A DNA stretch of 58,640 bases from Nitrospirota bacterium (GCA_027623995.1 JAQBUF010000014.1:1-58640), one strand, 5' to 3'; positions 5,293-57,117 are shown, numbered from the stretch's first letter. The notes: generated from the letters alone by a model not told the origin. A program made the numbers and translations.

Positions 5293-5307
5293 GGGTTAAA
5301 TTTGTTC

Positions 5308-6297
5308 ATGAATGTCATACCACAAATAATTTGTCGGTTTCTGGTTGTATCTCTCCTTGCTATTTCTGCGGGTGTCGCTCCATCCTCAGTGGCCATCGCT
5401 ACTGAGATGGTCATCACTCCCACGATTCAAGAGAGCGGGACCAAGGTCACCCTTCTTGATACTTTTTTTCTGGATACGAAAAGAGGATGGGCGGTCGGTG
5501 CCGGTGGGACGATGCTTCGCACGGACGATGGAGGAACCAATTGGAAAACTGTTCCGCGTCGAACGCCCTCCTTGCTCATGAGTATCTTTTTCTCTGGCGA
5601 TAAACATGGCTGGGTTATTGGCCAAAATGGAACCGTGCTCCATTCAGGTGATGGGGGAATGAAATGGGTGCCACAAATCAGTGGCACGTCCTCACCCCTC
5701 TATGGTTTATTTTTTAGAGATGACACCCATGGTTGGATTGTGGGTGCCCGAGGAACCATCTTACGTACGGAGGATGGCGGTCAATCTTGGGAAGATCAAC
5801 ATAGTGGCACATCAGCAGATTTGTTTGGCATCGAATTTCTCAATGACAAACAAGGCTGGGCCGTTGGCGCGTTAGGGGTGATCCTGACGACCACAGATGG
5901 CGGCCAGAGTTGGGTGAAGCAACCGACGGATAGCTCAGCGACTTTTTTCGATATCCAATTTTTGGACAAACAAGTTGGATGGGTTGTGGGGACTCAAGGT
6001 TCTATTTTTCGTACGGTGACGGGTGGGGAGCAATGGGAAGATAAAACTCGGGCCTGTGGATCACCCTGTATTCGCCCCCCTGACTTTTTAAAAATTCATT
6101 TCACTGGCTTCCGCAATGGTTGGATTATTGGTGAACGCGGTGCTTTCCTCAATACCATTGATGCCGGCTTCAACTGGAGCGCACCAGAATTACCTGAACA
6201 ATTTTCTCTCTATGGTTTAACCTTTCCAGAACCTCATACCGGCTGGGCCGTGGGTGATCAAGGTACCATCCTTAAGATCTCCGCAAGCGATTCATAA
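5308..6297 (+). CDS. exported YCF48/BNR-repeat beta-propeller protein
   Basis: The product has a signal peptide (residues 1-33, ending SVAIA) followed by about seven repeats. Each carries a W-V-G core (GWAVGAGGTMLRTDDGGTNW, HGWVIGQNGTVLHSGDGG, HGWIVGARGTILRTEDGG and so on). This is the pattern of the Ycf48/Hcf136 photosystem II assembly family. Non-photosynthetic bacteria carry many such propellers with unknown partners; assembly or scaffolding in the periplasm is the likely theme. A TTG six bases upstream (5302) is an alternative start, better spaced from AGGGG at 5291-5295. It is the last plus-strand gene of this secreted set and converges on rsmE. Confidence 0.82.
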   Translation: MNVIPQIICRFLVVSLLAISAGVAPSSVAIATEMVITPTIQESGTKVTLLDTFFLDTKRGWAVGAGGTMLRTDDGGTNWKTVPRRTPSLLMSIFFSGDKHGWVIGQNGTVLHSGDGGMKWVPQISGTSSPLYGLFFRDDTHGWIVGARGTILRTEDGGQSWEDQHSGTSADLFGIEFLNDKQGWAVGALGVILTTTDGGQSWVKQPTDSSATFFDIQFLDKQVGWVVGTQGSIFRTVTGGEQWEDKTRACGSPCIRPPDFLKIHFTGFRNGWIIGERGAFLNTIDAGFNWSAPELPEQFSLYGLTFPEPHTGWAVGDQGTILKISASDS

Positions 6298-8302: not shown

Positions 8303-10237
8303 TTATTTTTTATCTTTATCAACTTCTTCAAATTCTGCATCCACGACTTTTTCATCTTCGCTTTCATTAATACCTGCGGAGCCATCGGCACCAGCATCAT
8401 TTCCGTTTTCGGCAGGCGATGCGCCTTCTGCCGAAGCCGCTTTATACATTTCTTCCGCCAGTTTATGAGAAGCCGTTTGCAAGTTTTGCATGGCCGTCTT
8501 CATGGCCTCGACATCCTCACCCTCCATGGCTGTTTTCATGGCGGCGACCGCTTCTTGAATTTTTGTTTTTTCCTCATCAGCGATTTTATCGCCGTTTTCG
8601 GTGAGGTTCTTTTCTGTTCCGTAAATTAAGGTGTCTGCTTGATTCTTGATTTCTACAGTTTCACGTCGTTTTTTATCTTCTTCGGAATGCGCCTGCGCGT
8701 CCTTAACTAATTGATCAACTTCTTCCTTACTCAGGCCGCTTGATGCCGTAATTTTAATGGATTGCTCTTTCTGTGTGGCCATATCCTTGGCATTGACGTG
8801 AACGATACCATTGGCATCAATGTCAAAAGACACTTCGATCTGTGGCATGCCACGTGGAGCTGGGGGAATTCCCACAAGATCAAATTGTCCAAGTAATTTA
8901 TTATCATTCGCCATTTCGCGTTCCCCTTGGAATACGCGAATAGTCACGGCCGTTTGACTATCGGCCGCGGTTGAAAATACTTGGCTCTTTTTTGTCGGGA
9001 TGGTCGTGTTTCGATCAATCAGTCGAGTAAATACTCCACCCAAGGTTTCAATGCCGAGAGAAAGCGGTGTGACGTCCAACAATAAGACGTCTTTCACATC
9101 ACCTCGAAGCACGCCACCTTGAATGCCGGCACCAATGGCCACAACTTCATCGGGGTTGACGCCACGATGAGGTTCTCTTCCAAAGAATTCTTTCACTCTC
9201 TGAATAACTTTGGGCATCCGTGTCATGCCACCGACGAGCACCACTTCGTTAATTTCTTTGGCGGTAACTCCAGCATCGGACAGAGCTTTTTTACAAGGTT
9301 GGATCGAACGATCAATCAAATCATCAACAAGTTGTTCAAATTTGGAGCGAGTTAATTTAAGCACCAAATGTTTGGGACCAGTGGCATCCGCCGTCACAAA
9401 TGGCAGATTAATTTCAGTTTCTTGTGCGGAAGATAATTCGATTTTTGCCCGCTCAGCCGCTTCTTTGAGTCGTTGTAAGGCCATGCGATCATTTTTGAGA
9501 TCAATGCCTTGATCCTTTTTGAACTCATCCACGAGCCAATCAATCACTCTCTCGTCAAAATCATCACCGCCGAGGAAGGTATCTCCGTTAGTCGATTTGA
9601 CTTCGAACACACCATCACCGATTTCTAAAATTGAGACATCAAAGGTTCCACCTCCAAGGTCGTAGACGGCAATGCGTTCTTCTTTCTTTTTGTCCAACCC
9701 ATAGGCGAGTGAGGCGGCGGTTGGTTCATTGATAATTCTGAGAACATTCAGACCAGCAATTTGCCCGGCATCCTTGGTTGCTTGGCGCTGACTGTCGTCA
9801 AAATAAGCTGGAACAGTGATGACCGCATCGGTGACTTTTTCGCCAAGGTAATCTTCAGCAGTCTGTTTGATCTTTGTCAGAATCATCGCTGAGACTTCCG
9901 GGGGGCTGTAGGCTTTGCCGCGGATGATTACATGTGCATCGCCATTATCAGCTTTAACGACCTTATAGGGTAGGCGTTTTGCGGCATCTTGGACTTCTTT
10001 GGCGGTGAACTTTCGTCCCATCAATCGCTTGACGGAAAAAATCGTGTTTTCTGGATTAGTGATCGCTTGCCGTTTGGCAATTTGGCCAACCAATCGCTCC
10101 TCTTTATCATTGATGGCCACGACCGATGGGGTCGTGCGTCCACCTTCAGAATTCGAAATCACCTCAGGGTCACCAGTGGTCATAATGGCGATACATGAAT
10201 TCGTTGTTCCAAGATCAATCCCAATAATTTTACTCAT
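8303..10237 (-). CDS. dnaK: chaperone protein DnaK (Hsp70)
   Basis: DnaK is the ATP-dependent Hsp70 chaperone. The protein of 644 residues starts [15 protein letters not shown], contains the phosphate and adenosine motifs ([43 protein letters not shown]), the linker [19 protein letters not shown], and a lid domain with an acidic tail. The longer open frame adds 20 residues with no family precedent. The ATG at 10237 has a good ribosome-binding site, AAGGAGAA, formed by the last codons of grpE. The grpE stop is 4 bp upstream, so translation is probably coupled. No CIRCE repeat or hrcA gene is visible next to the operon. Confidence 0.97.
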
Positions 10238-18029: not shown

Positions 18030-18151
18030 TTCCTTCCTAAGTACCTGGTTTTATTTAACTTTTCTTTGTACATGTTTTTGTTTCTTCAACGGTTACATTC
18101 GGATCACAATATAACGTCAAGTAAAGCTTGAACATTAGTGGGGGAAGTTTT

Positions 18152-21115
18152 ATGAGGGATTTTTTCAATTTTGATGATCTCATTCAACCGTGGCATCGTT
18201 TGGCTTTATCAGCTGAAGGCACGGAAGAAGATTGGGGTGCTGGTGAAGATGTAGACAAAGATAAGCTGCCTTCTGCTCCTACCAGTGTCAAAGCTGTTGC
18301 GGGTAATGGTTTTATTACCGTGTCCTGGGAACCTGTCCCTGACGCCATGTACTACAACATCTATTACTCGACCACAAAAGGCGTGACCATCAAACCAAAC
18401 GAATTAACCCGTCCAATTGCCAGCAAAGATGATTTTATTCCTCTCGTTGGCGTGACTAAAGAATCCGGCAATTGCATCGAAGGTCCGGCCACTCCTTATA
18501 CCCATAACGACTTGGCGAACGGCATGTGTTACCACTATGTGGTGACCGCGGTGACGGAAGATGGCGAAAGCCCGTGCTCAGAAGAAGTCATGTCAATTCC
18601 AGCCCCCTATTTGCCCATTATGCAATTTGGTGAAGAGGGCGTTGACGAGGGTGAGTTCCGTTCGCCCACGGGTATTTGTATTGATGGCGAAGGCTTTATT
18701 TATGTGGCTGATACTGACAATCATAGCATCCAGAAATTTGATAAGGATGGAAAATTTGTGGCTCGATGGGGCGGGGAAGCCGATTCCGAAGAAGGGATGT
18801 TTTACTATCCCAGAGGGCTGGCGGCATCTCCGGAAGGTCATATCTATGTCGCAGATAGTGGAAATAATCGTGTTCAAAAGTTTGATCCCGATGGAAACTT
18901 CATGAAGGCCTGGGGTCAATTTGGTTTTGCCTGGCGTGGTGCTGAAGCAGGAAAATTTGACGTGCCTTGGGGTGTCACCACTGACCAACAAGGCAATCTG
19001 TTTGTCTCGGATACGAGTAATGCGCGGATCCAGAAGTTTGAATCCAATGGAACGCCGACATTGAAATGGGGACGGGATGGCAGCTTTGATGGTGCCTTCT
19101 TTTATCCTCGAGGGTTAGCGGTAGATTTCGTGGGTAATATCTTTATCGCGGATGAAGGGAATCACCGGATTCAAAAATTCGATCCCCGTGGAAACTTTTT
19201 GGCCAAATGGGGCAGGGAAGGTAATGGCCCAGGTCAATTTAAAAATCCTTGGGGTGTGGCCTGTGATCCGATTGGAAATCTTTACGTTATTGATCATGCG
19301 AACCATCGCATCCAAAAGTTTGATTCCAATGGAACCTACTTATGTAGCTGGGGAAATCGTGGGCTCACCGAGTCGCAAGTCAACTATCCAACAGGCATTG
19401 CCGTGGACAAAGAGGGTTATGTCTATGTCGTGGATAGCGGCAATCACCGTATTGTGAAATTTGCTCCAACTGAAGAAGAACTAGCTCGAGGTCGGGAAAA
19501 AGCTGAAAAAGTTCAAGATGAAAATGTTGTAGGTTTGCCAGCAGCTCATTTAGTTGGAAAGCCAGGTGATACGGAATCCATGTTGAGTTGGATGGAAGTG
19601 CCTGGTGCTGTCGCCTATAACATGTATTTTCACACAGAAACTGGCCTGACTAAAGATATCGCCACAAAAATAGAAGGCGTGACGAGCCCGTTTACTCACA
19701 CGGGTCTCACCAACAACACTCCCTATTTCTACGCGCTCACTTCTGTCGATGAATCAGAAAATGAAAGTGTCTTGTCCAACGAAACAGAAGTCTCTCCGAT
19801 AATGATTGATTTGGCGGCACCACAGAATCCAGATTTGGTGATGAATCATGGCGCATATATGGTCAATTCCTTGGATGTGGTCGCGACCATTTCCGCTAAG
19901 GACATGGATTCTGGGGTCGCCGGGTACTTTATTTCTGAGAATCCCATGACGCCAAGCGCCACTCTTCCAGGGTGGATTGAGGTCGAACCAGAATATAAAT
20001 TTGGGGCAACGATTCCTTTTACACTCTCACCAGGGGACGGTCCAAAGACGGTCTATGTGTGGTTCAAGGATGTTGGCAATAATACCTCAGTTCCTGCCAG
20101 TGCCAGTATCGTATTGAATACATCTGGTTACGTGTGTACGGGAGTCTGGGGTAAAGCAGGGCGAGGTGCCTCGATGCTACATGGTGGAGAATTTATGGCA
20201 CCAATATATGGGATGGCCATCGATCGTCAGGGAGCCATGTTCGTGGTGGATAACGGCAACAATCGAGTCCAAAAATTCACGAACACTGGAGACTTTATTT
20301 TGTTGTGGGGAAATTTTGGCCAAGCCAATGGGAATTTTAATAATCCCACGGGCATTGCTTGCGATGGTAAAGGTGATGTCTATGTGTGCGATACCAATAA
20401 TCACCGCGTGCAAAAATTTGATGGAAAACTTGGTCAGTTCCTCATGAAGTTTGGCGGACGAGGCAATGGTGAAGGTCAATTCAATGCGCCGTGGGGCATC
20501 GCCGTGGATCGAGTCCGGGGTTATATCTATGTGGTCGATAGCGCAAACTTCCGAATCCAAAAATTTGATGAAGACGGTGAGTTCATCATGCATTGGGGAA
20601 GTTTTGGCAATAATGATGGTCAGTTTTATTTCGCCAGAGGGATCGCGGTCGATCAAAATGACGGCATGGTCTATGTCGTGGATATGGGGAACCACCGTAT
20701 TCAAAAATTTGATACCAGCACGAACGTGCTTCCCCAGCTCGTGGCCAAATGGGGTGGTGGCATTGGCGCCGGACATGCCAGCAGTTCACTAGCGCAGGAT
20801 CCTGGACAATTTCGTTCACCCTGGGGCGTGGCGGTCGATGGATCTGGCGATGTATTTGTCACGGATACAGGGAACCAACGTCTTCAAAAATTCGATCGTG
20901 ACGGGAATTTTGTGACCCAATGGGGTGGCTTTGGCAATGCCGATGGCCAGTTTAACTTTCCTTATGGGTTGGTCCTGGATCCACGAGGGCATGTCTTTGT
21001 GGTGGATAGCGGAAATATGCGCGTTCAACACTTTATGCCTGCTGAAGATGCTGAGGAACATATCCGCGACGAAGCTGAATCTCTTACCGCATTACCTGAA
21101 GGAGCTGAATCTTAA
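18152..21115 (+). CDS. NHL-repeat/fibronectin type III protein with two beta-propellers
   Basis: This 987-residue protein starts at the ATG with GGGGGAAG six bases upstream, not at the earlier in-frame TTG (18128). Layout: FN3-like domain (about 35-150, VKAVAGNGFITVSWEPVPDA), six NHL repeats (about 155-440), a second FN3 (about 460-550), an Ig-like domain (about 550-660), and six more NHL repeats (about 663-963). Each NHL repeat reads like GIAVDKEGYVYVVDSGNHRI. Two six-bladed propellers are expected. There is no signal peptide or membrane helix, although such proteins are often exported. The acidic N-terminus (EGTEEDWGAGEDVDKDK) is unusual. Function is unknown; protein or ligand binding is likely. 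It is a single-gene unit with its own promoter and terminator. Confidence 0.85.
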   Translation: MRDFFNFDDLIQPWHRLALSAEGTEEDWGAGEDVDKDKLPSAPTSVKAVAGNGFITVSWEPVPDAMYYNIYYSTTKGVTIKPNELTRPIASKDDFIPLVGVTKESGNCIEGPATPYTHNDLANGMCYHYVVTAVTEDGESPCSEEVMSIPAPYLPIMQFGEEGVDEGEFRSPTGICIDGEGFIYVADTDNHSIQKFDKDGKFVARWGGEADSEEGMFYYPRGLAASPEGHIYVADSGNNRVQKFDPDGNFMKAWGQFGFAWRGAEAGKFDVPWGVTTDQQGNLFVSDTSNARIQKFESNGTPTLKWGRDGSFDGAFFYPRGLAVDFVGNIFIADEGNHRIQKFDPRGNFLAKWGREGNGPGQFKNPWGVACDPIGNLYVIDHANHRIQKFDSNGTYLCSWGNRGLTESQVNYPTGIAVDKEGYVYVVDSGNHRIVKFAPTEEELARGREKAEKVQDENVVGLPAAHLVGKPGDTESMLSWMEVPGAVAYNMYFHTETGLTKDIATKIEGVTSPFTHTGLTNNTPYFYALTSVDESENESVLSNETEVSPIMIDLAAPQNPDLVMNHGAYMVNSLDVVATISAKDMDSGVAGYFISENPMTPSATLPGWIEVEPEYKFGATIPFTLSPGDGPKTVYVWFKDVGNNTSVPASASIVLNTSGYVCTGVWGKAGRGASMLHGGEFMAPIYGMAIDRQGAMFVVDNGNNRVQKFTNTGDFILLWGNFGQANGNFNNPTGIACDGKGDVYVCDTNNHRVQKFDGKLGQFLMKFGGRGNGEGQFNAPWGIAVDRVRGYIYVVDSANFRIQKFDEDGEFIMHWGSFGNNDGQFYFARGIAVDQNDGMVYVVDMGNHRIQKFDTSTNVLPQLVAKWGGGIGAGHASSSLAQDPGQFRSPWGVAVDGSGDVFVTDTGNQRLQKFDRDGNFVTQWGGFGNADGQFNFPYGLVLDPRGHVFVVDSGNMRVQHFMPAEDAEEHIRDEAESLTALPEGAES

Positions 21116-28069: not shown

Positions 28070-28468
28070 ATGGATAAATCTGCGGTCATTGAACAAGTTC
28101 TTCGTGTGGTTCCAAGTTGCATCGCCCTGTATCAATTTGGGTCTGAAGCTAAGGGGCAGGCTCATGCAGGGAGTGATCTGGACATCGCGTTTTTGTCTAC
28201 TGCACCCATCTCTCCGGTTCGACGGTTCGATCTTGAACAAGACCTTGCCAGTCTTTTTCATCGAAAAGTTGATCTCATAAATCTTCGACAAGCCTCAACC
28301 GTCATGAAAATGCAGGTGATCTCATCGGGGAAATGTTTGTATTCCAGGAATGACGGAGAACGGGACCGTTTTGAAACCTGGGTCTATTCTTCTTATGCTC
28401 GTCTGAATGAAGAACGGCGAGAGATTCTCAACGATATTCAGAAGCGGGGATCTGTATATGCCCGATGA
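28070..28468 (+). CDS. mntA: MntA-type nucleotidyltransferase antitoxin (type VII toxin-antitoxin)
   Basis: The 132-residue protein is a minimal nucleotidyltransferase with the signature GSx10DxD. Gly24-Ser25 and Asp36/Asp38 lie in YQFGSEAKGQAHAGSDLDIA. In the characterised MntA-HepT system this antitoxin transfers AMP groups from ATP to a tyrosine next to the HEPN RNase motif and so silences the toxin. A third acidic residue is probably in RKVDLINLRQ. The HEPN partner begins inside its 3' end (11-bp overlap), so the pair is translationally coupled. An in-frame stop just before the ATG fixes the start; the ribosome-binding site is weak. Motifs and partner together make the call strong. Confidence 0.9.
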   Translation: MDKSAVIEQVLRVVPSCIALYQFGSEAKGQAHAGSDLDIAFLSTAPISPVRRFDLEQDLASLFHRKVDLINLRQASTVMKMQVISSGKCLYSRNDGERDRFETWVYSSYARLNEERREILNDIQKRGSVYAR

Positions 28469-28868
28469 TGTCTTACTCAATAAGGTGGCCATCATCGAAC
28501 GTTGCCTGGCTCGAATTCAAGACGTCTATGCCAATAATGACAAAAATCTTTTTGAGGATGTCACGAAACAAGACTCTATTATTCTCAACATTCAACGTGC
28601 ATGCGAGGCTTCCATTGATTTAGCGATGCATCTCGTGAGGAAACATGGGCTAGGCATTCCTCAGGAGAGTCGTGAAGCATTTGCATTGTTGGAAACGGGA
28701 GACTTGCTAGAGGGTGAACTGGCTCAACGAATGAAAAAGATGGTGGGATTTCGAAATGTGGCCGTCCATGATTACACGGAATTGAGTTTTGATATTATCA
28801 AAGCTATCATTACCGAAAGATTAGAAGATTTTTCGGATTTTACTAAATTTGCCCTCCAATTGAAGTAA
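28458..28868 (+). CDS. hepT: HepT-type HEPN RNase toxin (type VII toxin-antitoxin)
   Basis: The product (136 residues) is a four-helix HEPN protein with the RX4HXY motif, Arg99-x4-His104-x-Tyr106 in GFRNVAVHDYTEL. Arg and His form the RNase site of the HEPN dimer. The Tyr two residues later is the residue that the MntA partner AMPylates in the characterised Shewanella system. I use the ATG at 28458, overlapping the mntA stop; the longer open frame reads through mntA. The pair lies between aspS and a convergent oxidoreductase gene with no visible mobile-element ends. Confidence 0.9.
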   Translation: MPDDVLLNKVAIIERCLARIQDVYANNDKNLFEDVTKQDSIILNIQRACEASIDLAMHLVRKHGLGIPQESREAFALLETGDLLEGELAQRMKKMVGFRNVAVHDYTELSFDIIKAIITERLEDFSDFTKFALQLK

Positions 28869-30121: not shown

Positions 30122-31627
30122 TTATTCAGAATGTACTTGTGTCTCTGGCTCAGCTAAATGCTCACGGACTTCTTTGACGTAGGTTTTGAAGGGGTTGGGC
30201 ATGGGAAAGGGGGGCTGACCACGGAGTTGGAAGATTGACCAGTTGATGACGTAGTGAGGGAAGCGACGTTCCAGTGAAGCCTCCAGACCTGGGTCTTCAT
30301 TCCATTCTTTGCCAATGAGTTCTTTGACCAATTCACTTCGTCCAAAGGCTCGGGTATTGCGAGGAGGATTTTGCATGGCGAGATCGATGGCCGCATTGGT
30401 TGTCACTCGCGGACAACGGCCTTCTTCTTCTAGCCCTGAGTAGAGGCTTTTCTCTGGATTGAGGTTGTGATATTCCAAGTCCAAGCTTTTCAGCCAGGGA
30501 TCATCCCATTCTAGTTTTTCTTCTTCTCGAAATGTTTCGAGCAACCAGAGTTTCGAGGCCCAATCGACTCGGCCAACCAGCTTGGTGTAATCGCCCCGAA
30601 GGTCGCGCAGAACGGATTCCCAATTATCTAAGACCCAGTCGGTGTCGTCATCCTGTCCAGCGTAATGATCTTGGCAACCCTTCAGGAATTCTTCTTGAAT
30701 ATCGATGGCTGACCGTGTTTTTCCATTGGCTAAACGCACTTCCCATTTCCTGGTAGGATCACGTGAGATTTCTTTCAGGGCTTGGATAGGTTCTTCGAGA
30801 TCTAATCCTTCCGGGGCATGACCATCTTCCACCAGTTGCATGACGAGGCCCGTGGTGCCCATTTTCAAGGCCGTCGCCACTTCTGTCATGTTGGAGTCGC
30901 CCAAGAGCAAGTGGATTCGTCGAAATTGATTGGGATCTGCTAAAGGTTCATCACGCGTATTAATAATCGCGCGATTGTGTTGGACCCATTCGAAGAAATC
31001 ATTCACGATATGATCGGCACGCTGGGAGATTTGAAACTTCACGGTGGAACGTCCGTGTTTATCACGAAGCCCAGAATCTTTCTGGGCTAATTGCTCTACC
31101 GGCACCCAACCATCATAAATCTCTGCCATGCCAATCCGACCAGCGCCCGTATAAATTTGGCGTGTCACTAAAAAGGGAATGAGTTTATTGAGACCTTTAA
31201 GATTGAAGGGGAAATGGCGTGAGACGAGATAGTTTTCATGACACCCGAAGGTCGCATCGGTTTCATGATCGATATTATTTTTGATGAGCGAGATGTTCTC
31301 ATCCAGGTTGAGCTCTTTCAAGGTACGTTGAAGTAACCGATCTCCTGCACGGTCCGCGGCTATGAGGTCGGCTAAGGTATTGCATTCAGGAGAGGCAAAC
31401 TCTAAATGCCCCATGTCCACATACAGCCGTCCTGAGTTCAGCAAAAACCCGCCATTGCCCGGGGGCTCATCGTAGCCACGGTAATGAAGGTCGAGCACAC
31501 CTTGCTCTTTCACTCGGAACACCTGATCAATCACTCGATGGGCCAGCCACGAGGGCGAGTGTTCTGGGTCATCACTATTGATGAGGAGTCCGTACTCTGT
31601 TTCAATGCCAAAAATTCTGTTTAACAT
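30122..31627 (-). CDS. pafA: Pup/UBact ligase PafA
   Basis: PafA uses ATP to join the C-terminal Glu side chain of the ubiquitin-like modifier to substrate lysines. The 501-residue product has the carboxylate-amine-ligase fold signatures: FGIETEYGLL at the N-terminus (metal/ATP-binding Glu residues), GRLYVDMGHLEFASPECNTL, NNIDHETDATFGCHENYLVS, FLVTRQIYTGAGRIG and INTRDEPLADPNQFRRIHLL with LGDSNMTE. It lacks the long insert before the NGAR-like strand that marks Dop, so I assign it as the ligase and the second paralogue as Dop. It is the last gene of the proteasome operon, 18 bp after prcA. Confidence 0.92.
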   Translation of the reverse strand: MLNRIFGIETEYGLLINSDDPEHSPSWLAHRVIDQVFRVKEQGVLDLHYRGYDEPPGNGGFLLNSGRLYVDMGHLEFASPECNTLADLIAADRAGDRLLQRTLKELNLDENISLIKNNIDHETDATFGCHENYLVSRHFPFNLKGLNKLIPFLVTRQIYTGAGRIGMAEIYDGWVPVEQLAQKDSGLRDKHGRSTVKFQISQRADHIVNDFFEWVQHNRAIINTRDEPLADPNQFRRIHLLLGDSNMTEVATALKMGTTGLVMQLVEDGHAPEGLDLEEPIQALKEISRDPTRKWEVRLANGKTRSAIDIQEEFLKGCQDHYAGQDDDTDWVLDNWESVLRDLRGDYTKLVGRVDWASKLWLLETFREEEKLEWDDPWLKSLDLEYHNLNPEKSLYSGLEEEGRCPRVTTNAAIDLAMQNPPRNTRAFGRSELVKELIGKEWNEDPGLEASLERRFPHYVINWSIFQLRGQPPFPMPNPFKTYVKEVREHLAEPETQVHSE

Positions 31628-31645
31628 CGTGGACGAGCCATTGGG

Positions 31646-32467
31646 TTAATTGGTGGTTGGGTGCAAGAAAGGCAGAAGAGAATGAATATCTTGTTGGACA
31701 ATGGTTCGATACTTTGAACTCCCAGGCGCCTGTCGTTCCAATACCGCACATTCTAACGTTTTATCCTTGAGGCCATTTTGGAGATGTTCCAAAATTTGTT
31801 CCTCGGAAATAGAATCATTCGATGCTTGTGTTTCTTTGTTTTCCGACGAAGAGGAGTCAGAATTTTCATTGTCTTGAATTTGGGACAGAGCCCCGAGAGC
31901 CCACGCGCGAACCGCCACTTCGAGGACTGATTGCAGGGTCGCCATGGTCGGAGTGACGTGTTCTTTCAGATAGGCTCTCATGGTGTCTTGACTCTTTGGC
32001 GTGGCTCCAAGCACAGCAACTTCATGGTGTTCTTCAAACGTCCCATCGTAGTCTACGGTATAAAAATTATCTTGATTTGGCAGGTTTCCGAGTTCGGCCA
32101 ATAGGAGCTTCGTAATATAAGGAGCTTTGTAGATCTCTTCAAAGGCCTGTTTGATCGCAGGAGCCATGCCATATTTGATCAGGCGAGATCCAGTCACATC
32201 ACCTGGTGATCGCTGAAACCCTTCCGTATGCGCCATGTCCAAAATGGAGAACCGTAGCTTTTCTAAATCGGCTGGATGCCCCATGCCCCCGAGACCAATG
32301 CGATCATAAATTTCGTAGAGTTTCGGGGTGCCATGACTGGTGGTGAGGAGCACAATGCCGTCCACATACGATACGGCAACCAGGGGACTGCCTTGACGAA
32401 ATTGCTCGTCGAGATATTGGCGTCGATTGCCAACGGCTTCGACCCATCGATACGGTTCATCATACAT
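31646..32467 (-). CDS. prcA: proteasome alpha subunit PrcA
   Basis: The 273-residue protein has the 20S alpha-type fold (YDEPYRWVEAVGNRRQYLDE, VAVSYVDGIVLLTTS, YDRIGLGGMGHPADLEKLRF) and no catalytic Thr. Alpha rings gate entry to the chamber and dock the ATPase. A low-complexity acidic insert (ENSDSSSSENKETQ) near residue 210 is unusual; the terminal segment KTLECAVLERQAPGSSKYRT follows. The frame runs back to a TTG at 32476, but the ATG at 32467 has AAAGG at suitable distance and overlaps the prcB stop by 8 bp. That implies translational coupling and balanced alpha/beta synthesis. Confidence 0.93.
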   Translation of the reverse strand: MYDEPYRWVEAVGNRRQYLDEQFRQGSPLVAVSYVDGIVLLTTSHGTPKLYEIYDRIGLGGMGHPADLEKLRFSILDMAHTEGFQRSPGDVTGSRLIKYGMAPAIKQAFEEIYKAPYITKLLLAELGNLPNQDNFYTVDYDGTFEEHHEVAVLGATPKSQDTMRAYLKEHVTPTMATLQSVLEVAVRAWALGALSQIQDNENSDSSSSENKETQASNDSISEEQILEHLQNGLKDKTLECAVLERQAPGSSKYRTIVQQDIHSLLPFLHPTTN

Positions 32468-33251
32468 ATTGGGCAACCTTTGTCGTAAAGAGCGTTTTCA
32501 ATTGTTCGGCAGGAATCGTTTCGACGCCTTTTTCGGTGATCCGTTTGATAATCGGGTAGAGATTGGATTCTATATTGGCTCCACCAGTGGCGGAGTCGAA
32601 CTCTGCGGCGCTAGCGAGTAATCGCAGAACAATGATGGAGGCTTCTTCTTCATCAAGGCCAGCGATTGGTTGCCCGCTCCATCGGTTGAGATAGTGAAAG
32701 ATGCCTCGAATGATGGACGACCCTGACCCAGACACCGCATGGTCAACGGCTTCAAATTCAGCGCCAAGAATATCATGGAAATAAATTTTTCCGCATCCGT
32801 GTTGGTGATCATATCCGGCAAAGACTGGGACGACCGCCCCAGTTCCCGCTAACGCCGCAGGCGCATTTTCTTTCATGAGTTTGGATAGGGCCCGGAGTTT
32901 TCCTTCAAAACTGAGATCTTGAAGCTGACTTCGTCGAAAATATTTGAAGGAATGTTCAAGGACTCTGGCCATTTCAAATGCGGTGGCAGGGACTCCGGCA
33001 ATCGCCATTACGCAATAGCGATCGATCTCTAGTACTTTATCCGTGCGATCATACATGATCATGTTGCCCGCGGTCGCCCGACGATCGCCAGCGACAAGCA
33101 CACCATCCCGATATTTCAGGGCCAATACTGTGGTGCCCTGGGTAATGGGGGGTAACGCGCCTTGCCCATGTTCACCGAATCTCGGTGTCGGGATGTCGAA
33201 TTGATAGCCTTGGTCTTTGAGAAGTTGAAAGAAATCGCCTTGAAAACCCAT
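32460..33251 (-). CDS. prcB: proteasome beta subunit PrcB
   Basis: This is the catalytic 20S subunit. A 39-residue propeptide ends PPITQG, and self-cleavage would expose Thr40 (TTVLALKYRDGVLVAGDRRA). The conserved Asp and Lys/Arg of the active site are in DGVLVAGDRR. The DILGAEFEAVDHAVSGSGS stretch with the SGSGS turn is typical. The start has AGGGGA at 9-10 bp, formed by the final Gly-Glu codons of the UBact gene 5 bp upstream, so modifier and protease synthesis look coupled. The stop overlaps prcA. Confidence 0.95.
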   Translation of the reverse strand: MGFQGDFFQLLKDQGYQFDIPTPRFGEHGQGALPPITQGTTVLALKYRDGVLVAGDRRATAGNMIMYDRTDKVLEIDRYCVMAIAGVPATAFEMARVLEHSFKYFRRSQLQDLSFEGKLRALSKLMKENAPAALAGTGAVVPVFAGYDHQHGCGKIYFHDILGAEFEAVDHAVSGSGSSIIRGIFHYLNRWSGQPIAGLDEEEASIIVLRLLASAAEFDSATGGANIESNLYPIIKRITEKGVETIPAEQLKTLFTTKVAQYV

Positions 33252-33256
33252 GGTGA

Positions 33257-33493
33257 TTATTCCCCTGTGCGTTGTCGATAGCGTTCGGCTTGTTTGGGAT
33301 CGACTTTTCTCATGCGTTTGAGCAAATTGTCTCGACTCGGAGATCCCGGTTCTGGTTTGCGAGGGCCAGCCTCATCATCTTTGGGCCCAGGTGGTTTTGG
33401 TATGGGATCGAGTGGTCGTTCCCGTCGTTCACAGTGAATGGGCAGGGGAGTCCCCTGTGTCTCGGTCATATAATTGGAAGTCGATGATTTCAT
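33257..33493 (-). CDS. ubact: UBact, ubiquitin-like protein modifier (Pup homologue)
   Basis: The 78-residue protein is disordered and Pro/Glu/Arg-rich (ERRERPLDPIPKPPGPKDDE). A short helical stretch (DNLLKRMRKVDPKQAERYRQ) and the C-terminus RTGE follow. This layout and ending match UBact, the Gram-negative counterpart of Pup. Because the last residue is already Glu, no Dop deamidation is needed before ligation. The start has GGAGG at 7 bp. The long N-terminus includes an alternative in-frame Met (MTETQGTP). It lies between dop and prcB, exactly where pup sits in actinobacterial clusters. It is short enough to be missed by automated annotation. Confidence 0.92.
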   Translation of the reverse strand: MKSSTSNYMTETQGTPLPIHCERRERPLDPIPKPPGPKDDEAGPRKPEPGSPSRDNLLKRMRKVDPKQAERYRQRTGE

Positions 33494-33534
33494 GATTTAG
33501 CCTCCTTTACGACAATGGCCAACATGTAGGATAT

Positions 33535-35028
33535 TTAGAGCACATCCGCAAGATGTTTGGCTTGATCGATCTTGTGCCAGAGCCGCGCGACGTGAGCAGG
33601 ATCAAAGAGGTCAGACATATCTAATTGTTGGGGTTGAGTCAAACTTTTCAGGTGAATACGTTCCCATTGAATGGCCTGAATTTCCTTGCGGAATTTTTTG
33701 ACGCACAATCCTCGAATGCCTGCTCTGGTGGTCGATGGCCCATGGGAAATGGCCTTTTGAATATCCTCATTGGTACAGAACCTCTGAGCTTTTCCTTCTT
33801 GTTCCAGCCCCAAATACAACCCACGATCCGAATGAATATTATGATACTCCAAATCAAGACTCGCCAGCCAGGGGTCATTCCATTCCAGCTGTTCATCTTG
33901 AGCGAACGACTCCAATAACCAGTGCTTGGTAATCCAATCGATGCGTCCGATTAACTCCGTGCGATTCTGTTTCAGAAGGTCGAGGGTTGTTTCCCAATTG
34001 GTGAGAATCCAATCGGTGTCGTCATCTTGTTTCGCCAAGGTTTTCTTGGCGGCTGAAAGATACGCTGACTGGATTTCCAAGGCGGTCAGTGATTTTCCAG
34101 ACGTCATCGGAATCAAGGCGTTGAGATCTAGGTCGCGGGAAATGGTTTTGATAGCTGTAATAGAGTCAGAAAATTCAAACTGTGGGGCGGCACCCTGCGC
34201 AATAAGTTCAAGAACGAGTTGCGTCGTTCCTATTTTGAGGGCAGTGGAAAATTCACACATATTCGCATCACCGACGATGAGGTGAAGCCGGCGATATTTT
34301 GTGCGATCGGCATGCGGCTCATCGCGCGTATTCAGGATAGGACGGTCATGCATGGTATCGACACTGAGTTCGGTTTCCATGAAGTCCGCGCGTTGTGAGA
34401 GTTGATACACGCCAGGTTCGTAGGAATGTTCTTGCGCCTCAATGCCGAGCTTTCCTGCCCCTGAAAAAATCTGTCGAGTGACGAGGAAGGGAATCAGGCC
34501 TGCGCTCAATTGATCAAAAGGAATCGTCCTTGAAATCAGATAATTGTCGTGGCACCCGTAACTGTGTCCGTGTAAATCGGTGTTGTTTTTATAGAGTTGG
34601 ACTGATTGTGATCCAAGCGTGGCATTGCGGGTATTGGCGGCATGTTGAAGTATGCGTTCCCCTGCACGATCATGGGCAATGATTTCTTTGAGGGTGGAAC
34701 ATTCTGGTGTGGAATATTCCGGGTGCGTGTGATCATTATAGAATCGTGCGCCGTTGGTGAGCACCAGGTCGCTTTTCATTTCGTAAAAGGAAAAGGGGCG
34801 ATGGGCATCCAGGGTGGCAAATTGTTCTTCTTCTACATCTTGCTGCAACCCGTGTACGCTGAATCCACGTTGGTCTTTGTGCGGATCTTCGCCTTTGTAA
34901 TCCCACGTTTGTTCAAACTTATCCGACATATACGCTCGGACCAATTCCATGGACTCGACCACGGGGTCGGACTCCGCTTGATCTTCGCGAATAATGCCGT
35001 ATTCGGTTTCTATGCCAAACAGTCTCAT
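33535..35028 (-). CDS. dop: Dop, deamidase/depupylase-type paralogue of PafA
   Basis: Dop removes the modifier from substrates and, in Pup-Gln species, deamidates Pup. The 497-residue protein shares the PafA fold (MRLFGIETEYGIIRED, QLYKNNTDLHGHSYGCHDNY, FLVTRQIFSGAGKLG, NTRDEPHADRTKYRRLHLIV). It also has the Dop-specific insertion (about residues 40-90, after WDYKGEDPHKDQRGF) leading into LVLTNGARFYNDHTHPEYST. The HPEYS segment is a Dop hallmark. Since UBact here already ends in Glu, its role should be de-conjugation only (inference). It is the second gene of the operon, 30 bp after the ATPase gene. Confidence 0.9.
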   Translation of the reverse strand: MRLFGIETEYGIIREDQAESDPVVESMELVRAYMSDKFEQTWDYKGEDPHKDQRGFSVHGLQQDVEEEQFATLDAHRPFSFYEMKSDLVLTNGARFYNDHTHPEYSTPECSTLKEIIAHDRAGERILQHAANTRNATLGSQSVQLYKNNTDLHGHSYGCHDNYLISRTIPFDQLSAGLIPFLVTRQIFSGAGKLGIEAQEHSYEPGVYQLSQRADFMETELSVDTMHDRPILNTRDEPHADRTKYRRLHLIVGDANMCEFSTALKIGTTQLVLELIAQGAAPQFEFSDSITAIKTISRDLDLNALIPMTSGKSLTALEIQSAYLSAAKKTLAKQDDDTDWILTNWETTLDLLKQNRTELIGRIDWITKHWLLESFAQDEQLEWNDPWLASLDLEYHNIHSDRGLYLGLEQEGKAQRFCTNEDIQKAISHGPSTTRAGIRGLCVKKFRKEIQAIQWERIHLKSLTQPQQLDMSDLFDPAHVARLWHKIDQAKHLADVL

Positions 35029-35058
35029 GATCGGTGAATGGGAAGTTCTACAATTCGG

Positions 35059-36795
35059 TTAAATGATCGAGTGATTGATTCGTTCTTCGGCCTTACGTCC
35101 TTTCCGGAAGGAGGAGACTCCGATCACTTGATCCGGATGATGATCCAACAGCTTCAGCCATTCTTCCGCCGAATCATCAGGTGGAAGAATCTCGCCTTCG
35201 CGGAATTCATCGTCGATTGATTGCAGGATATCTTCAAGCGTCAGACCATGGCCACCCTCCTTGATTGTTCGCTCAATAGCTCGTTCTTTGGCCCGTCGTG
35301 CCAACGATGCCAAGATGGCTCCACTCAAGAGATTGCAACGATAGAGGGTTTCATGCTTTCCATTTCTTAACCGAATGCTCAGGACTCGAGTGTCATCAGA
35401 TTTCTTAAACACCTGATCGATGGTTTCTTCAATGATGGCGCTACAGGCCTTGTTGGCATCCTTCTCATATGCGGCGAGAAGTTCCTCGGAGAGTGGGAGA
35501 TCAGGCGTCACATAGATTCGAAGAATATCTTTGGCTTCCTGTCGGTTTGGTCGTTCGACTTTTATTTTTCGATCGATTCGTCCGGGCCGAAGTACTGCGG
35601 GATCAATAAGATCTGGTCGATTCGATGCGATAATGACCACGACGTCTTGCAGCGAATCCACGCCATCAAGCTCTGCGCAAAACATGGGGACGAGGGTGTT
35701 GGCAATATTATAGGACCGTGCGGAGCGCCTGGTGCCTAAGATGGATTCAGCTTCATCAATGAAGAGGAAGGGGAGGAGCCCTTCTTTTCTCTTTTCCCGT
35801 GCTTGGACGAATAAGTCACGAACGATACGTTCGGATTCACCCACCCACATGTTTAAGATTTCCGGGCCTTTGACATGGAGAAAGGCACCACCGGTGATTG
35901 GAGGAAGTTGATTCTTATTGGAATCGTCCGAAGAGGCCGCAGCTTGGTGTTGTGACACCAGGTTCGCGAGGCTCGATGCTGTCGCTTTCCCAATCAATGT
36001 TTTTCCACACCCTGGAGGTCCATACAAGAGAAACCCTTTGGGTTGAGTAAATTGAAAGGCCTCAAAGGTTTTGGCATGAAGCAAGGGATATTCAATAGCT
36101 TTGCGGATCGCATCGATGGCTTGTTGTTGTCCACCGATTTGCTCCCAGGTGATATCTGGTGTTTCCTCAAGGGTATGTTTCGTATTTTGGGTATTCTCAA
36201 TTCGCTCAATGCCTAAGCGGTGAGTGGGATCGAGTCGTATTTCATCGCCAGGTTTGAGGGTCATGTCTTTTAGGCTAAGCGCCAGGTCTACGAGTTGCCC
36301 TGGTCGTCCAGCTTCAGAATCGAGTCGGACTCTGCCGTCAGAGAGCAATTCTTTGATTTTGACAATGGAACCATTTCGATCAAATCCCAAGGTGCCAATA
36401 AGGGCATAGGCTTCATTCACTAACACCTGGGCTCCGAGTTCAAGTTCATCAGGATTGAGTTGCGGATCAATGTTGGCATAGAACTCACTCCCTCCGACTG
36501 AAATGCGAGCGATGCCTTCAGCGGGTTTATCAATCAACGTACCAATCCGGTTGGCAGGTGCTGTGAGCTTTTCCACGACACTGTGAAGTTTTGTAATTTC
36601 TACCTCGCGTTCTTGTTGGGTCACTCCCGCTTGCAACAATTGGTGACGAATTTTATAGAGCAACTTTTGTTGCGGCGCATCTTCGGAAAGAGTGGCGAGG
36701 CATTCATCGATCAGGACAAGGGGATCTGACTTGCCCGCAGGTTCTCGGAATGGTGGGGAATCCTCTGGCATGTGCGATGGTTTTCGATCACTCAT
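35059..36795 (-). CDS. mpa: proteasome-activating AAA ATPase (Mpa/ARC)
   Basis: Mpa/ARC hexamers unfold tagged proteins and feed the 20S core. The 578 residues show an N-terminal coiled coil (about 45-85, QQEREVEITKLHSVVEKL), OB domains (about 85-205), Walker A (FLLYGPPGCGKTLIGKA), pore-loop region KGPEILNMWVGESERIVRDL, Walker B (FLFIDEAESILG) and arginine fingers (LRPGRIDRKIKV). It ends in HSII and lacks the C-terminal Gln-Tyr-Leu-type docking tail of Mycobacterium Mpa. It heads the operon; TACAAT on the minus strand (complement 36858-36863) could be its -10 box. The divergent kinase gene begins about 200 bp away. Confidence 0.93.
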   Translation of the reverse strand: MSDRKPSHMPEDSPPFREPAGKSDPLVLIDECLATLSEDAPQQKLLYKIRHQLLQAGVTQQEREVEITKLHSVVEKLTAPANRIGTLIDKPAEGIARISVGGSEFYANIDPQLNPDELELGAQVLVNEAYALIGTLGFDRNGSIVKIKELLSDGRVRLDSEAGRPGQLVDLALSLKDMTLKPGDEIRLDPTHRLGIERIENTQNTKHTLEETPDITWEQIGGQQQAIDAIRKAIEYPLLHAKTFEAFQFTQPKGFLLYGPPGCGKTLIGKATASSLANLVSQHQAAASSDDSNKNQLPPITGGAFLHVKGPEILNMWVGESERIVRDLFVQAREKRKEGLLPFLFIDEAESILGTRRSARSYNIANTLVPMFCAELDGVDSLQDVVVIIASNRPDLIDPAVLRPGRIDRKIKVERPNRQEAKDILRIYVTPDLPLSEELLAAYEKDANKACSAIIEETIDQVFKKSDDTRVLSIRLRNGKHETLYRCNLLSGAILASLARRAKERAIERTIKEGGHGLTLEDILQSIDDEFREGEILPPDDSAEEWLKLLDHHPDQVIGVSSFRKGRKAEERINHSII

Positions 36796-39575: not shown

Positions 39576-40865
39576 TTATGCGGATTTTCGAATAAGTTGA
39601 GGCTTTTTCTCACCCGTGATGACGTCTTCGGTTATCACCACTTCTTGAATGCCTTCCAATGCTGGCGTGTCGTACATCAGATCGAGCATTTTTTCTTCAA
39701 GAATGGTGCGAAGCGCGCGAGCACCGGTCTTCAATGATGCCGCTTTGTGAGCCACCGATTTCACGGCTCCATCAGTAAAGACTAAATCAATCCCATCAAG
39801 TTCAAATAATGCCTGATATTGTTTCACAAGAGCATTTCTGGGTTCAGTCAAAACACGAACTAAATCAGATTCACTTAAATCTGTGAGTGTGGTCATGATG
39901 GGGAAACGTCCGACAAATTCTGGAATTAATCCATATTTCAATAAGTCTTCAGGTTGTGCAAGGTGAAGTAATTCACTGGCATGCGATTGATTTTGGGCTT
40001 CAGGATTTGCCCCAAATCCCATCCGTTTATGACTGGTGCGTTGTGCGATAATTTGATCCAATCCGACAAATGCCCCACCACAAATGAATAAGATATTTTT
40101 GGTATTCACTCGAATAAATTCTTGATCAGGATGCTTTCGACCACCTTTTGGCGGAATGTTGCACATTGTCCCTTCGACAAGTTTCAGCAAGGCTTGTTGC
40201 ACCCCTTCGCCCGAGACATCACGAGTAATTGACGCGCTTTCCGATTTGCGACTAATTTTATCGATCTCGTCAATGTAAATGATTCCGGTCTCTGCACGTT
40301 TGGCATCAAAATCACAGGATTGCAGGAGCTTCAACACCACATTTTCGACGTCTTCTCCCACATATCCAGCTTCAGTGACCGTGGTGGCATCGGCAATCGC
40401 AAAGGGGACTTGCAGAATGCGGGCAAGAGTTTGGGCCATTAATGTCTTGCCGGTCCCTGTTGGCCCAAGAAGAAGGACATTGCCCTTTTCTAACTCGACG
40501 TCCTTGATCTCTTTCCCACTGAACACGCGCTTATAGTGATTATGCACAGCCACAGCTAACACTTTTTTCGCTTGTTCTTGGCCTATAACATATTGGTCAA
40601 GAATCGCTTTGATGTCAGGGGGCCGTGGTAATTTAAAGTCTAGAGGTGGTGCTGGAGTTTCTGTGGTCTTCGGGGAATGCTCAGCGAGAAAGCGTCCGCA
40701 GAGTTGGACGCATTCGTTACAAATCAACAAGGTGCTGTCATTGCGGCATGTTCCACAGGTATATTTCGATGGACTTTGAATAAATCCTGACACGGCATTT
40801 TGCGCTCGTCCGCAGAATGAACATGTTGGATCAGCGGTCCCTTGTTTTGAATCCCAAAACGGCAT
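39576..40865 (-). CDS. clpX: ClpX-type AAA+ unfoldase with atypical zinc-binding domain
   Basis: ClpX unfolds tagged proteins and passes them to ClpP. The AAA+ part is canonical: Walker A ([18 protein letters not shown]), pore loop [10 protein letters not shown], Walker B ([11 protein letters not shown]), GGRKHP loop, and [11 protein letters not shown]. The ClpP-docking loop reads MGF in [11 protein letters not shown] where most ClpX have I/L/V-GF. The N-terminal zinc domain has three CxxC pairs (Cys15/18, 37/40, 49/52) plus Cys56; ordinary ClpX has two pairs, so about 12 residues (around [11 protein letters not shown]) are inserted. No tig or clpP is adjacent, suggesting a second, specialised ClpX paralogue. 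AAAGGAAA provides a ribosome-binding site. Confidence 0.9.
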
Positions 40866-55413: not shown

Positions 55414-57117
55414 TCATACTAAGGCCTTTAGTGATTTAACAATCATGATTCTACGTGCCTTTGAGAACTCATCAAATGAATCAAAGTCGAGTTTAATGGA
55501 ATCAGGAATTAAATGTCTCTTACGGAATGCAGCATCTCGTGTCTGAATCCACTTGTCGAAAGGCGTAGCATTCTTGGAAAGATTCTCTGAATCAGTTAGC
55601 AACTGAAGATTGGTGAGAATGTTGAAGCTCGACATGTAGGCTTGAATCTTTGCCTCGTCGTAACCTCGCTTTTTCAAAGCTCTTAACTGGAATTCCGACT
55701 TAGGGAAGATATGATCTTCGTGGAAAACGGCATCCTTCCAATCACGATCAGGATAAAGCAATGACAAGACTAAATTCGTATAACGTCCTTGGTAGCCATA
55801 CTCTAAAATGCGATCGATTTCCGCATCATCGAGTCGTGGTTCAATTCCGAGCGACTTGTAGAGGAGATCAGCAGGAAACGGGCTCGTCGGACCACAAGTT
55901 TTCAACAATTCGCGCAGTCGGGTCAGTGTAGTATCAGATGAACCTCCAAATGCGTTTTTAAGAGTTGAGAAAATGAACCACTTGCGAATAGCAACTTGGG
56001 CATCGGCATCTTCGGCCTTGGATGATGTATCGAATGATGAATTGCCACGATTCATGATGTAGAAAGCAATCGGTAGCAGTGCCAAAGGCGCAACGACGTT
56101 CTTCGAGCTAAATCCAAAACGGGAAATGAGCCTCACAGTTGCTGACACAGATTCTTTGATCTTATCCCAGTTTCCTTCAATGGTGCGCAGGTTTGTTTTC
56201 GTAAAGTTTTTGACTTTGTATTGGATGGGTAAATTCTCGCTGAGATAAAGACAACCTTTCAGCACGAAATCCTTGCCAAAGCTGTATCCATTACCGAGTT
56301 CGTTTATTGAATCAGTGAAATCATGGATTTCTTTGCGTGCATCAAGCGTTTCCCATTTCGCTGTTGCGGTTGCTAACAGAAGATCTGAGTATTCGAGTGG
56401 CTGTCCCGCAGAGTTCGCTCTAACGAAGACCTGCAACACCTTGTCGTAATCCTGGGAGTTCTCCTGATAGTAGTTCCCGACGAGGGTTGTATGGATGCGG
56501 TTGTGCAAACGTCCAATCAACTTGTTGGCATTCTCTCGCTGGTCTTCTGATAAATCTTCCAGACTCGACTTCATATCGGACTTCGCATCCTCAGCGTCTT
56601 CGAAATCCAAGATTCGGCCAACCAAGTACCAAAGTTGCGGCTCTTCTCCGTTCGGTTCTGTATTTTCTCGAAATGCGAATCCGTAGGTAAGCTCTTCAGG
56701 ATTGTCATCGTTGGGCACAGGTGGTTTTAAGAGATTGAGGGATAGACGTGCTTCTCGCCAGTGATAGTAGAAATAACGGTACTTGCCCCGAAGTCCGATG
56801 AGAAGCGAAGTAATGCGCTGTTGGCCATCTAGGACGAGTTTGATGTCTTTCGTTATTCCGGCCATGTTTGCGGGCGGGTTGTGCGGGGACTCTCCGTCAA
56901 AATCTCGAATGAACTCATAGACAGGCCACTCGTTCTTATTCTTTTGTTCCAATAGCCAGAAGAGAAATGAGCCAATGGGAAAATCAGCCATGATTGAATC
57001 AAAAAGCCGTTCAATTCGATCCATTCCCCATACCAACTCCCGCTGTATTGCAGGGAGATAGATGTCACGATTGACTTGGCGGATTATGTCGCTAACTCGG
57101 ATTGGGATGTATTCCAT
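55414..57117 (-). CDS. DUF262-HNH fusion protein (GmrSD-like, probable defence nuclease)
   Basis: The 567-residue protein has an N-terminal DUF262 domain of the ParB/Srx-like fold, with RDIYLPAIQRELVWGMDRIE and the NTP-binding motif LVLDGQQRITSLLIGLRG. The C-terminal region has a DUF1524-type HNH motif in FHEDHIFPKSEFQL with a later Asn in FNILTNLQLLTDSEN. GmrSD/BrxU-type type IV restriction enzymes share this architecture and use NTP-driven cleavage of modified phage DNA. A defence role is inferred. It fills one integron cassette: R' of the preceding attC is 20 bp before its start and its own attC follows the stop. Confidence 0.85.
   Translation of the reverse strand: MEYIPIRVSDIIRQVNRDIYLPAIQRELVWGMDRIERLFDSIMADFPIGSFLFWLLEQKNKNEWPVYEFIRDFDGESPHNPPANMAGITKDIKLVLDGQQRITSLLIGLRGKYRYFYYHWREARLSLNLLKPPVPNDDNPEELTYGFAFRENTEPNGEEPQLWYLVGRILDFEDAEDAKSDMKSSLEDLSEDQRENANKLIGRLHNRIHTTLVGNYYQENSQDYDKVLQVFVRANSAGQPLEYSDLLLATATAKWETLDARKEIHDFTDSINELGNGYSFGKDFVLKGCLYLSENLPIQYKVKNFTKTNLRTIEGNWDKIKESVSATVRLISRFGFSSKNVVAPLALLPIAFYIMNRGNSSFDTSSKAEDADAQVAIRKWFIFSTLKNAFGGSSDTTLTRLRELLKTCGPTSPFPADLLYKSLGIEPRLDDAEIDRILEYGYQGRYTNLVLSLLYPDRDWKDAVFHEDHIFPKSEFQLRALKKRGYDEAKIQAYMSSFNILTNLQLLTDSENLSKNATPFDKWIQTRDAAFRKRHLIPDSIKLDFDSFDEFSKARRIMIVKSLKALV

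Follow-up and report, generated by a model that had tools for sequence, protein, structure and literature searches.

A six-gene UBact operon

We analysed a 58,640-nucleotide stretch of DNA from a Nitrospirota bacterium (GCA_027623995.1, JAQBUF010000014.1:1-58640; hereafter the window), whose minus strand carries, at 30122-36795, six contiguous and co-oriented genes of the UBact-proteasome system, a bacterial equivalent of the ubiquitin-proteasome system that is known but has received little study. In the order of transcription they encode an ARC/Mpa-type ATPase, a Dop-like enzyme, the modifier UBact, the proteasome subunits PrcB and PrcA, and a PafA-like enzyme, with successive spacings of 30, 41 and 5 nucleotides (nt), an overlap, and 18 nt, which is an operon-like arrangement. 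The original prediction for this DNA had proposed the same six genes, and all six open reading frames (ORFs) are in place, with identities given by curated profiles. The parts of the operon described below lie on this strand.

The ATPase (35059-36795, 578 amino acids (aa)) is of the UBact type and combines two proteasomal-ATPase OB domains with an AAA domain (Pfam Prot_ATP_ID_OB_N/C and AAA), as proteasomal ATPases (ARC) generally do; the solved structure closest to it in sequence is Mpa of Mycobacterium tuberculosis (Mtb). It is followed by the Dop-like enzyme (33535-35028; PF03136, 5.5e-167), predicted to be the UBact deconjugase and, in relatives with a Gln-ending UBact, also a deamidase; by UBact itself (33257-33493; PF20513, 6e-20; NF033388, 4e-20; and alignment); by the 20S beta subunit PrcB (32460-33251; PF00227, 5.7e-25) and alpha subunit PrcA (31646-32476; PF00227, 3.4e-07; TIGR03691, 2.6e-23); and by the PafA-like enzyme, the predicted UBact ligase (30122-31627; PF03136, 2.9e-134). 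The more likely start of prcA is the ATG at 32467, which overlaps the prcB stop. All five enzymes and subunits score below the NCBIfam cut-offs for Pup-system equivalogs (the ATPase, for instance, reaches 450 bits with TIGR03689, where the Pup-type equivalog cut-off is 504.75), as would be expected of a separate subfamily.

The gene order was compared with that of the best 80 of 223 UBact loci in GTDB, all labelled as Nitrospirota or Nitrospinota metagenome-assembled genomes (MAGs), and with that of 24 further UBact loci retrieved, along with 32 further Pup loci, from a survey of 245 genomes drawn from the phylum; some genomes are shared between the GTDB set and the survey. The six-gene order was seen in 62 of the 80 named GTDB loci, contig ends interrupting most of the others, and in 23 of the 24 Nitrospirota loci. 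Across about 100 loci this order is conserved while the flanking genes are not, and the arrangement in the window is therefore not due to chance. Matches to promoters and terminators at the locus were no more numerous than in shuffled sequence.

The UBact modifier

The modifier has 78 residues, ends in KVDPKQAERYRQRTGE and scores well above the cut-offs of its family profiles (71.2 bits for Pfam PF20513, cut-off 27.8; 71.8 bits for NCBIfam NF033388, cut-off 35), and a strong Shine-Dalgarno sequence (AAAGGAGG, 33501-33508) lies 7 nt before its ATG; its length and RTGE end are as first assigned. It contains the conserved KVDPxQ[AS]ERYRQRTG block and the terminal G[EQ], and the Glu of its C-terminal Arg-Thr-Gly-Glu (33260-33271) is the predicted attachment residue. 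All UBacts examined end in RTG[EQ]: in a first set this was so for 25 of 25, four of them with Gln, and in the GTDB set 65 of 80 end in RTGE and 15 in RTGQ, so that Glu is the majority form. The RTGE end had been presented as a peculiarity, standing in place of GGQ or GGE; we rejected this view, as RTG[EQ] is the general signature of the UBact family.

The window modifier is not a Pup, since Pfam returns UBact alone and the protein ends in TGE, not GG[EQ]. Profile comparison of UBact and Pup gave no significant similarity (single-pair BLASTP, 22 bits), and a sequence search found no solved UBact structure. A weak second UBact-like match in another genome (G139, C1:1039919, 26 bits) has no operon around it and was taken as chance.

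Because the UBact of the window ends in Glu, no deamidation would be needed before ligation, and the Dop-like enzyme would most likely act as a de-conjugase here. That it does nothing else in the window's species, as had been predicted, is plausible by analogy with Pup chemistry (PMC3511204). About one in six UBacts, however, end in Gln: in such species, including within the window's own order (L091), Dop would by the same analogy be needed for UBact activation.

The ligase and deconjugase candidates

Both PF03136 enzymes score above the curated cut-off and retain the catalytic motifs (ETEYG, the catalytic Asp and NTRDEP). The enzyme at 33535-35028 reaches 475.8 bits with the Dop model TIGR03688, narrowly below the equivalog cut-off of 492.3, and 401 with the PafA model. 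Its partner at 30122-31627 scores about equally with the Dop model (337 bits) and the PafA model (325), so that the profiles are ambiguous for it, and misses the TIGR03686 equivalog cut-off of 551.3; its sequence is PafA-like, and we do not file it as a PafA equivalog. The Dop class is marked by a Dop-loop of about 37 residues, and such a loop is found in the Dop-like enzyme, where the region (WDYKGEDPHKDQRGF..., 34774-34905) spans 47 residues versus 19 in the partner. The partner has no Dop-loop, and its C-terminal NPF/DPF and [VI]NW motifs resemble those of PafA. The labels PafA and Dop that had been given to the pair are less secure than first presented: neither enzyme attains the NCBIfam equivalog cut-offs, and the labels depend on the Dop-loop, a small number of diagnostic residues and the order of the genes.

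In the predicted ligase, the alpha-loop region (ADHIVNDFFEWVQHN, 30974-31018) is unlike that of either PafA or Dop, matching the PafA alpha-loop residues at His only; it represents a third kind of loop (HIVNDFFEWVQHN), which is well conserved among the 92 UBact-type sequences compared. AlphaFold models, in which this region has low confidence (predicted local distance difference test (pLDDT) <50), make it helical in the ligase candidate but not in the Dop candidate, the same contrast as between PafA and Dop. The model of the Dop-like enzyme is closest to Dop structures (Z 41 versus 36.5 for PafA); that of the ligase candidate has a clear fold, but its Z scores fail to tell PafA and Dop apart (35.8 and 34.0). 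We consider it very probable that the enzyme at 30122-31627 is ligase-like and the one at 33535-35028 deconjugase-like.

The proteasome core

PrcB of the window has a propeptide of 39 residues, followed by the catalytic Thr at residue 40 (33132-33134; Thr1 after processing), and Thr1, Asp17 and Lys33 are all present, which, together with the tandem alpha and beta genes, is what defines a bacterial 20S core. PrcA has diverged far from its Mtb counterpart (50 bits), but all 96 full-length PrcA sequences retain the lysine equivalent to Mtb Lys52, which we take to be a residue of the alpha pocket. One genome that consists of a single contig and is 99% complete (G019) has the UBact set only, with no other proteasome-family protein; there the UBact set is therefore independent of a Pup set and can stand alone.

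A second, Pup-type system in the same cell

The genome of the window (order Nitrospirales; 3.13 Mb, 110 contigs, 99.7% complete, 0.7% contamination) encodes four PF03136 enzymes, not two. A second set of Pup type had escaped the original prediction: contig C29 (L008, 7390-13734) carries Pup-type ARC, Dop, PrcB, PrcA and PafA, and contig C36 (L002, ~9835-10035) carries an orphan canonical pup (the genome has no other PF05639 match), which ends in YVQKGGE and lies between hppA (membrane pyrophosphatase) and recJ (gene names by inspection). Gene order is equal in UBact and Pup loci, except that in the window's order pup lies outside the operon, at a conserved site before recJ and relA/spoT (L002, L138, L139, L140) with hppA upstream in L002, L138 and L139; in other classes of the phylum its place is between dop and prcB. 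Contig C44 encodes another protein of proteasome fold, probably HslV.

Of the 245 surveyed genomes, 84 gave UBact matches, 113 gave Pup matches and 77 gave both, and 72 of the 77 dual genomes have exactly four PF03136 enzymes. Both systems belong to one cell, since they occur together on the single-contig chromosomes G055 and G145; assembly contamination as the origin of the second system was rejected on the same ground. In an unrooted tree of 114 PF03136 enzymes, the UBact-type and Pup-type groups (Dop_U, PafA_U, Dop_P and PafA_P) each lie on one side of a single branch (Shimodaira-Hasegawa approximate likelihood-ratio test (SH-aLRT) 99-100). These four monophyletic groups and the recurrence of exactly four enzymes indicate that the sets were inherited as separate systems. 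A phylogeny of PafA and Dop had been proposed as a check on the original prediction, and while it yields four clean clades it does not settle how they join: the best tree unites the two UBact enzymes (SH-aLRT 96), a grouping that could be long-branch attraction, and the approximately unbiased (AU) test rejected the pairing of Dop_U with PafA_P (p 0.005) and no other.

A different C-terminus on the ATPase

Mpa docks on the 20S core through its GQYL tail, in which Tyr is penultimate (PMC8755798). The window ARC ends in Ser-Ile-Ile (35062-35070), with no penultimate Tyr, and thus has neither GQYL nor the C-terminal hydrophobic-Tyr-X (HbYX) motif of the HbYX-type ATPases (Mpa/ARC, PAN). A penultimate Tyr is present in all 33 Pup-type ARCs, as GHY[LF], and in none of the 96 UBact-type ARCs, in 95 of which the penultimate residue is Ile or Val and the last one Ile, Val or Glu. 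The tails comprise 76 distinct 20-residue sequences, so the end is conserved against a variable background, although all of them come from one phylum.

The sole exception is G129, whose ARC tail is APKN. An in-frame internal deletion has fused its UBact-type prcB and prcA into a 156-aa ORF (L095:3990-4460, C37) missing the greater part of the catalytic domain; ARC, Dop, UBact and PafA remain intact, and this genome still has its Pup-type 20S. In Actinobacteria without a 20S, the ATPases likewise have no C-terminal docking motif (PMC3511204). This coincident loss and its actinobacterial parallel lead us to propose the -[IV][IVE] end as the docking tail of the UBact-branch ARC, a role to which we give slightly better than even odds. 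We found no statement on the UBact ARC tail or its missing HbYX in the literature, in a search that reached few subscription journals.

Neighbouring genes and side observations

An open frame antisense to dop on the plus strand (34642-35037) has a counterpart in 48 UBact loci and most likely just shadows the conserved dop coding strand. In another locus (L084 ~4844-5766, G189:C3), dop and ubact are separated by an insertion of ~900 bp, whose product has an ILDVGCGKGRIP motif and is a probable class I methyltransferase. In the window, a ClpX-like ATPase gene (39576-40865) is situated upstream of the operon, and six related loci have related ORFs. Also near the operon, at 28070-28868, an overlapping pair of genes for a Polbeta-type nucleotidyltransferase (MNT) and a HepT-like ribonuclease forms a HEPN-MNT toxin-antitoxin candidate. 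Elsewhere in the window we noted a candidate defence gene with a GmrSD restriction endonuclease N-terminal domain (55414-57117; PF03235, 9e-30) and a 995-aa protein with at least 11 NHL repeats, likely a beta-propeller (18128-21115).

Discussion

From these genes we infer conjugation, deconjugation and degradation, the separateness of the UBact pathway within the cell and docking through the ATPase tail. UBact would be made with a C-terminal Glu and, if Pup chemistry is a guide, would require no deamidation; the PafA-like enzyme, a homologue with intact catalytic motifs, would use ATP to join the Glu side chain to substrate lysines; and the Dop-like enzyme would remove UBact, and in relatives would also deamidate Gln-ending UBact. 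The UBact-type ARC ring would then unfold tagged proteins and feed them to the UBact-type PrcA/PrcB 20S. Taken jointly, these steps probably make up a self-contained UBact conjugation-degradation pathway, with a distinct Pup pathway running next to it in the cell. That ARC docks through its penultimate-Ile tail, in place of HbYX or GQYL, is a further step that we favour by the narrowest of leads.

The two systems might not be separate if UBact-type and Pup-type enzymes cross-react, or if the Pup-type 20S also degrades UBact-tagged proteins. Both enzyme sets are homologous with their catalytic motifs kept, and G129 retains its UBact set without a prcB-prcA pair of its own while the Pup-type 20S remains. 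However, the enzyme clades are fully separate, the modifiers share no significant profile similarity and the ARC tails differ in every locus, and we think such sharing unlikely. UBact tagging could also be regulatory, not degradative, with an ARC lacking HbYX unfolding or stripping its substrates, as proposed for corynebacteria; HbYX is found in no UBact-type ARC, and proteasome-less actinobacteria have ATPases without the motif (PMC3511204). Yet almost every locus has intact prcB and prcA within the operon, the tail is swapped for another conserved end and has decayed only where prcBA was lost, and G019 has no other 20S-family protein, all of which makes a purely regulatory role quite unlikely.

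The roles of the two enzymes could be swapped or shared, with 33535-35028 as the ligase and 30122-31627 not, the pair having duplicated independently of the Pup-type pair. This would fit the grouping of the UBact enzymes in the unrooted tree, the third kind of alpha-loop at 30122-31627 and the PafA score of that enzyme, which does not exceed its Dop score. The Dop-loop is nevertheless found in 33535-35028 and not in its partner, which has the PafA-like C-terminal motifs; both enzymes occupy the same gene positions as in Pup operons; and the low-confidence models of the alpha-loop parallel PafA and Dop. A swap therefore appears very unlikely. Finally, assembly contamination could account for the locus or for one of the two systems, or either could be a duplicate in decay. 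The 110 contigs of the assembly speak for this reading; against it stand the 0.7% contamination estimate, the single-contig chromosomes with both systems and reading frames that are all intact and conserved, and we regard it as extremely improbable.

Several observations weigh against a UBact pathway with the roles and the docking tail assigned here. At 21 informative positions that are diagnostic of Dop and PafA (PMC7947786), the predicted Dop agrees with Dop at 8 and with PafA at 2, and at the other 11 it resembles neither class, while the predicted ligase agrees with PafA at 4, with Dop at 3 and with neither at 14. The tree mildly favours pairing of the UBact enzymes rather than a single ancient Dop/PafA split, for which the AU p is 0.06. 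The ligase and deconjugase roles are assigned on homology, and the support for tail docking consists of conservation and a single loss event in a MAG, within one phylum.

The UBact-proteasome system of Nitrospira and other Gram-negatives was reportedly described by Lehmann et al. in 2017 (BBRC, Biochemical and Biophysical Research Communications, 483:946; doi 10.1016/j.bbrc.2017.01.037). The locus in the window has the same modifier family (PF20513) and the same six genes, with no difference in gene content, and the same UBact locus is present in Candidatus N. defluvii (L165) and N. moscoviensis (L176). With the Pup system of Actinobacteria it shares homologous ARC, Dop/PafA-family enzymes, PrcA and PrcB, a short tag with a G[EQ] end and a similar gene order; it differs in a modifier unrelated by profile, in an ARC that ends in -II where the actinobacterial one ends in GQYL, in the alpha-loop of its ligase and in five enzymes and subunits below the Pup-system equivalog cut-offs. 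The C29 system of the same genome is a parallel five-gene operon (ARC-dop-prcB-prcA-pafA) with a modifier ending in KGGE, but its pup lies outside the operon on C36, its ARC ends in GHYF and its enzymes fall in separate clades.

Pup-like conjugation in nitrospirae, with a G[EQ] signature, was noted in 2008 (PMC2588565), and UBact was named in 2017 (as cited in PMC12751074). In 2012, two complete and very different copies in the same context, 'L1/L2', were reported for Leptospirillum, the second with a 'Pup' lacking the terminal GGE (PMC3511204, Fig. 2 legend), which fits one Pup and one UBact system, although the second modifier was not named as a distinct family. The window locus is thus one more UBact operon, and dual possession was noticed earlier (PMC3511204). 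The full conjugation-degradation system outside Actinobacteria that the original prediction described is indeed a full UBact locus in Nitrospirota; its novelty does not survive this literature.

Our proposal is that Nitrospirota possess two separate tag-and-degrade proteasomes at once, set apart by modifier, by ligase and by an ATPase-20S docking code, and in this complete form we see it as evenly poised. The code would be a penultimate-Ile tail (x-[IV]-[IVE]-COOH) for UBact and a penultimate-Tyr GHY[LF] for Pup. If true, it would provide a proteasome-activator docking motif other than HbYX, and the absence of HbYX together with a replacement end in 95 of 96 ARCs makes a specific prediction for how a motor docks without HbYX. 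In this phylum nature provides cells that have two complete proteasome systems side by side, in which the specificity of ligase for tag and of motor for 20S can be tested.

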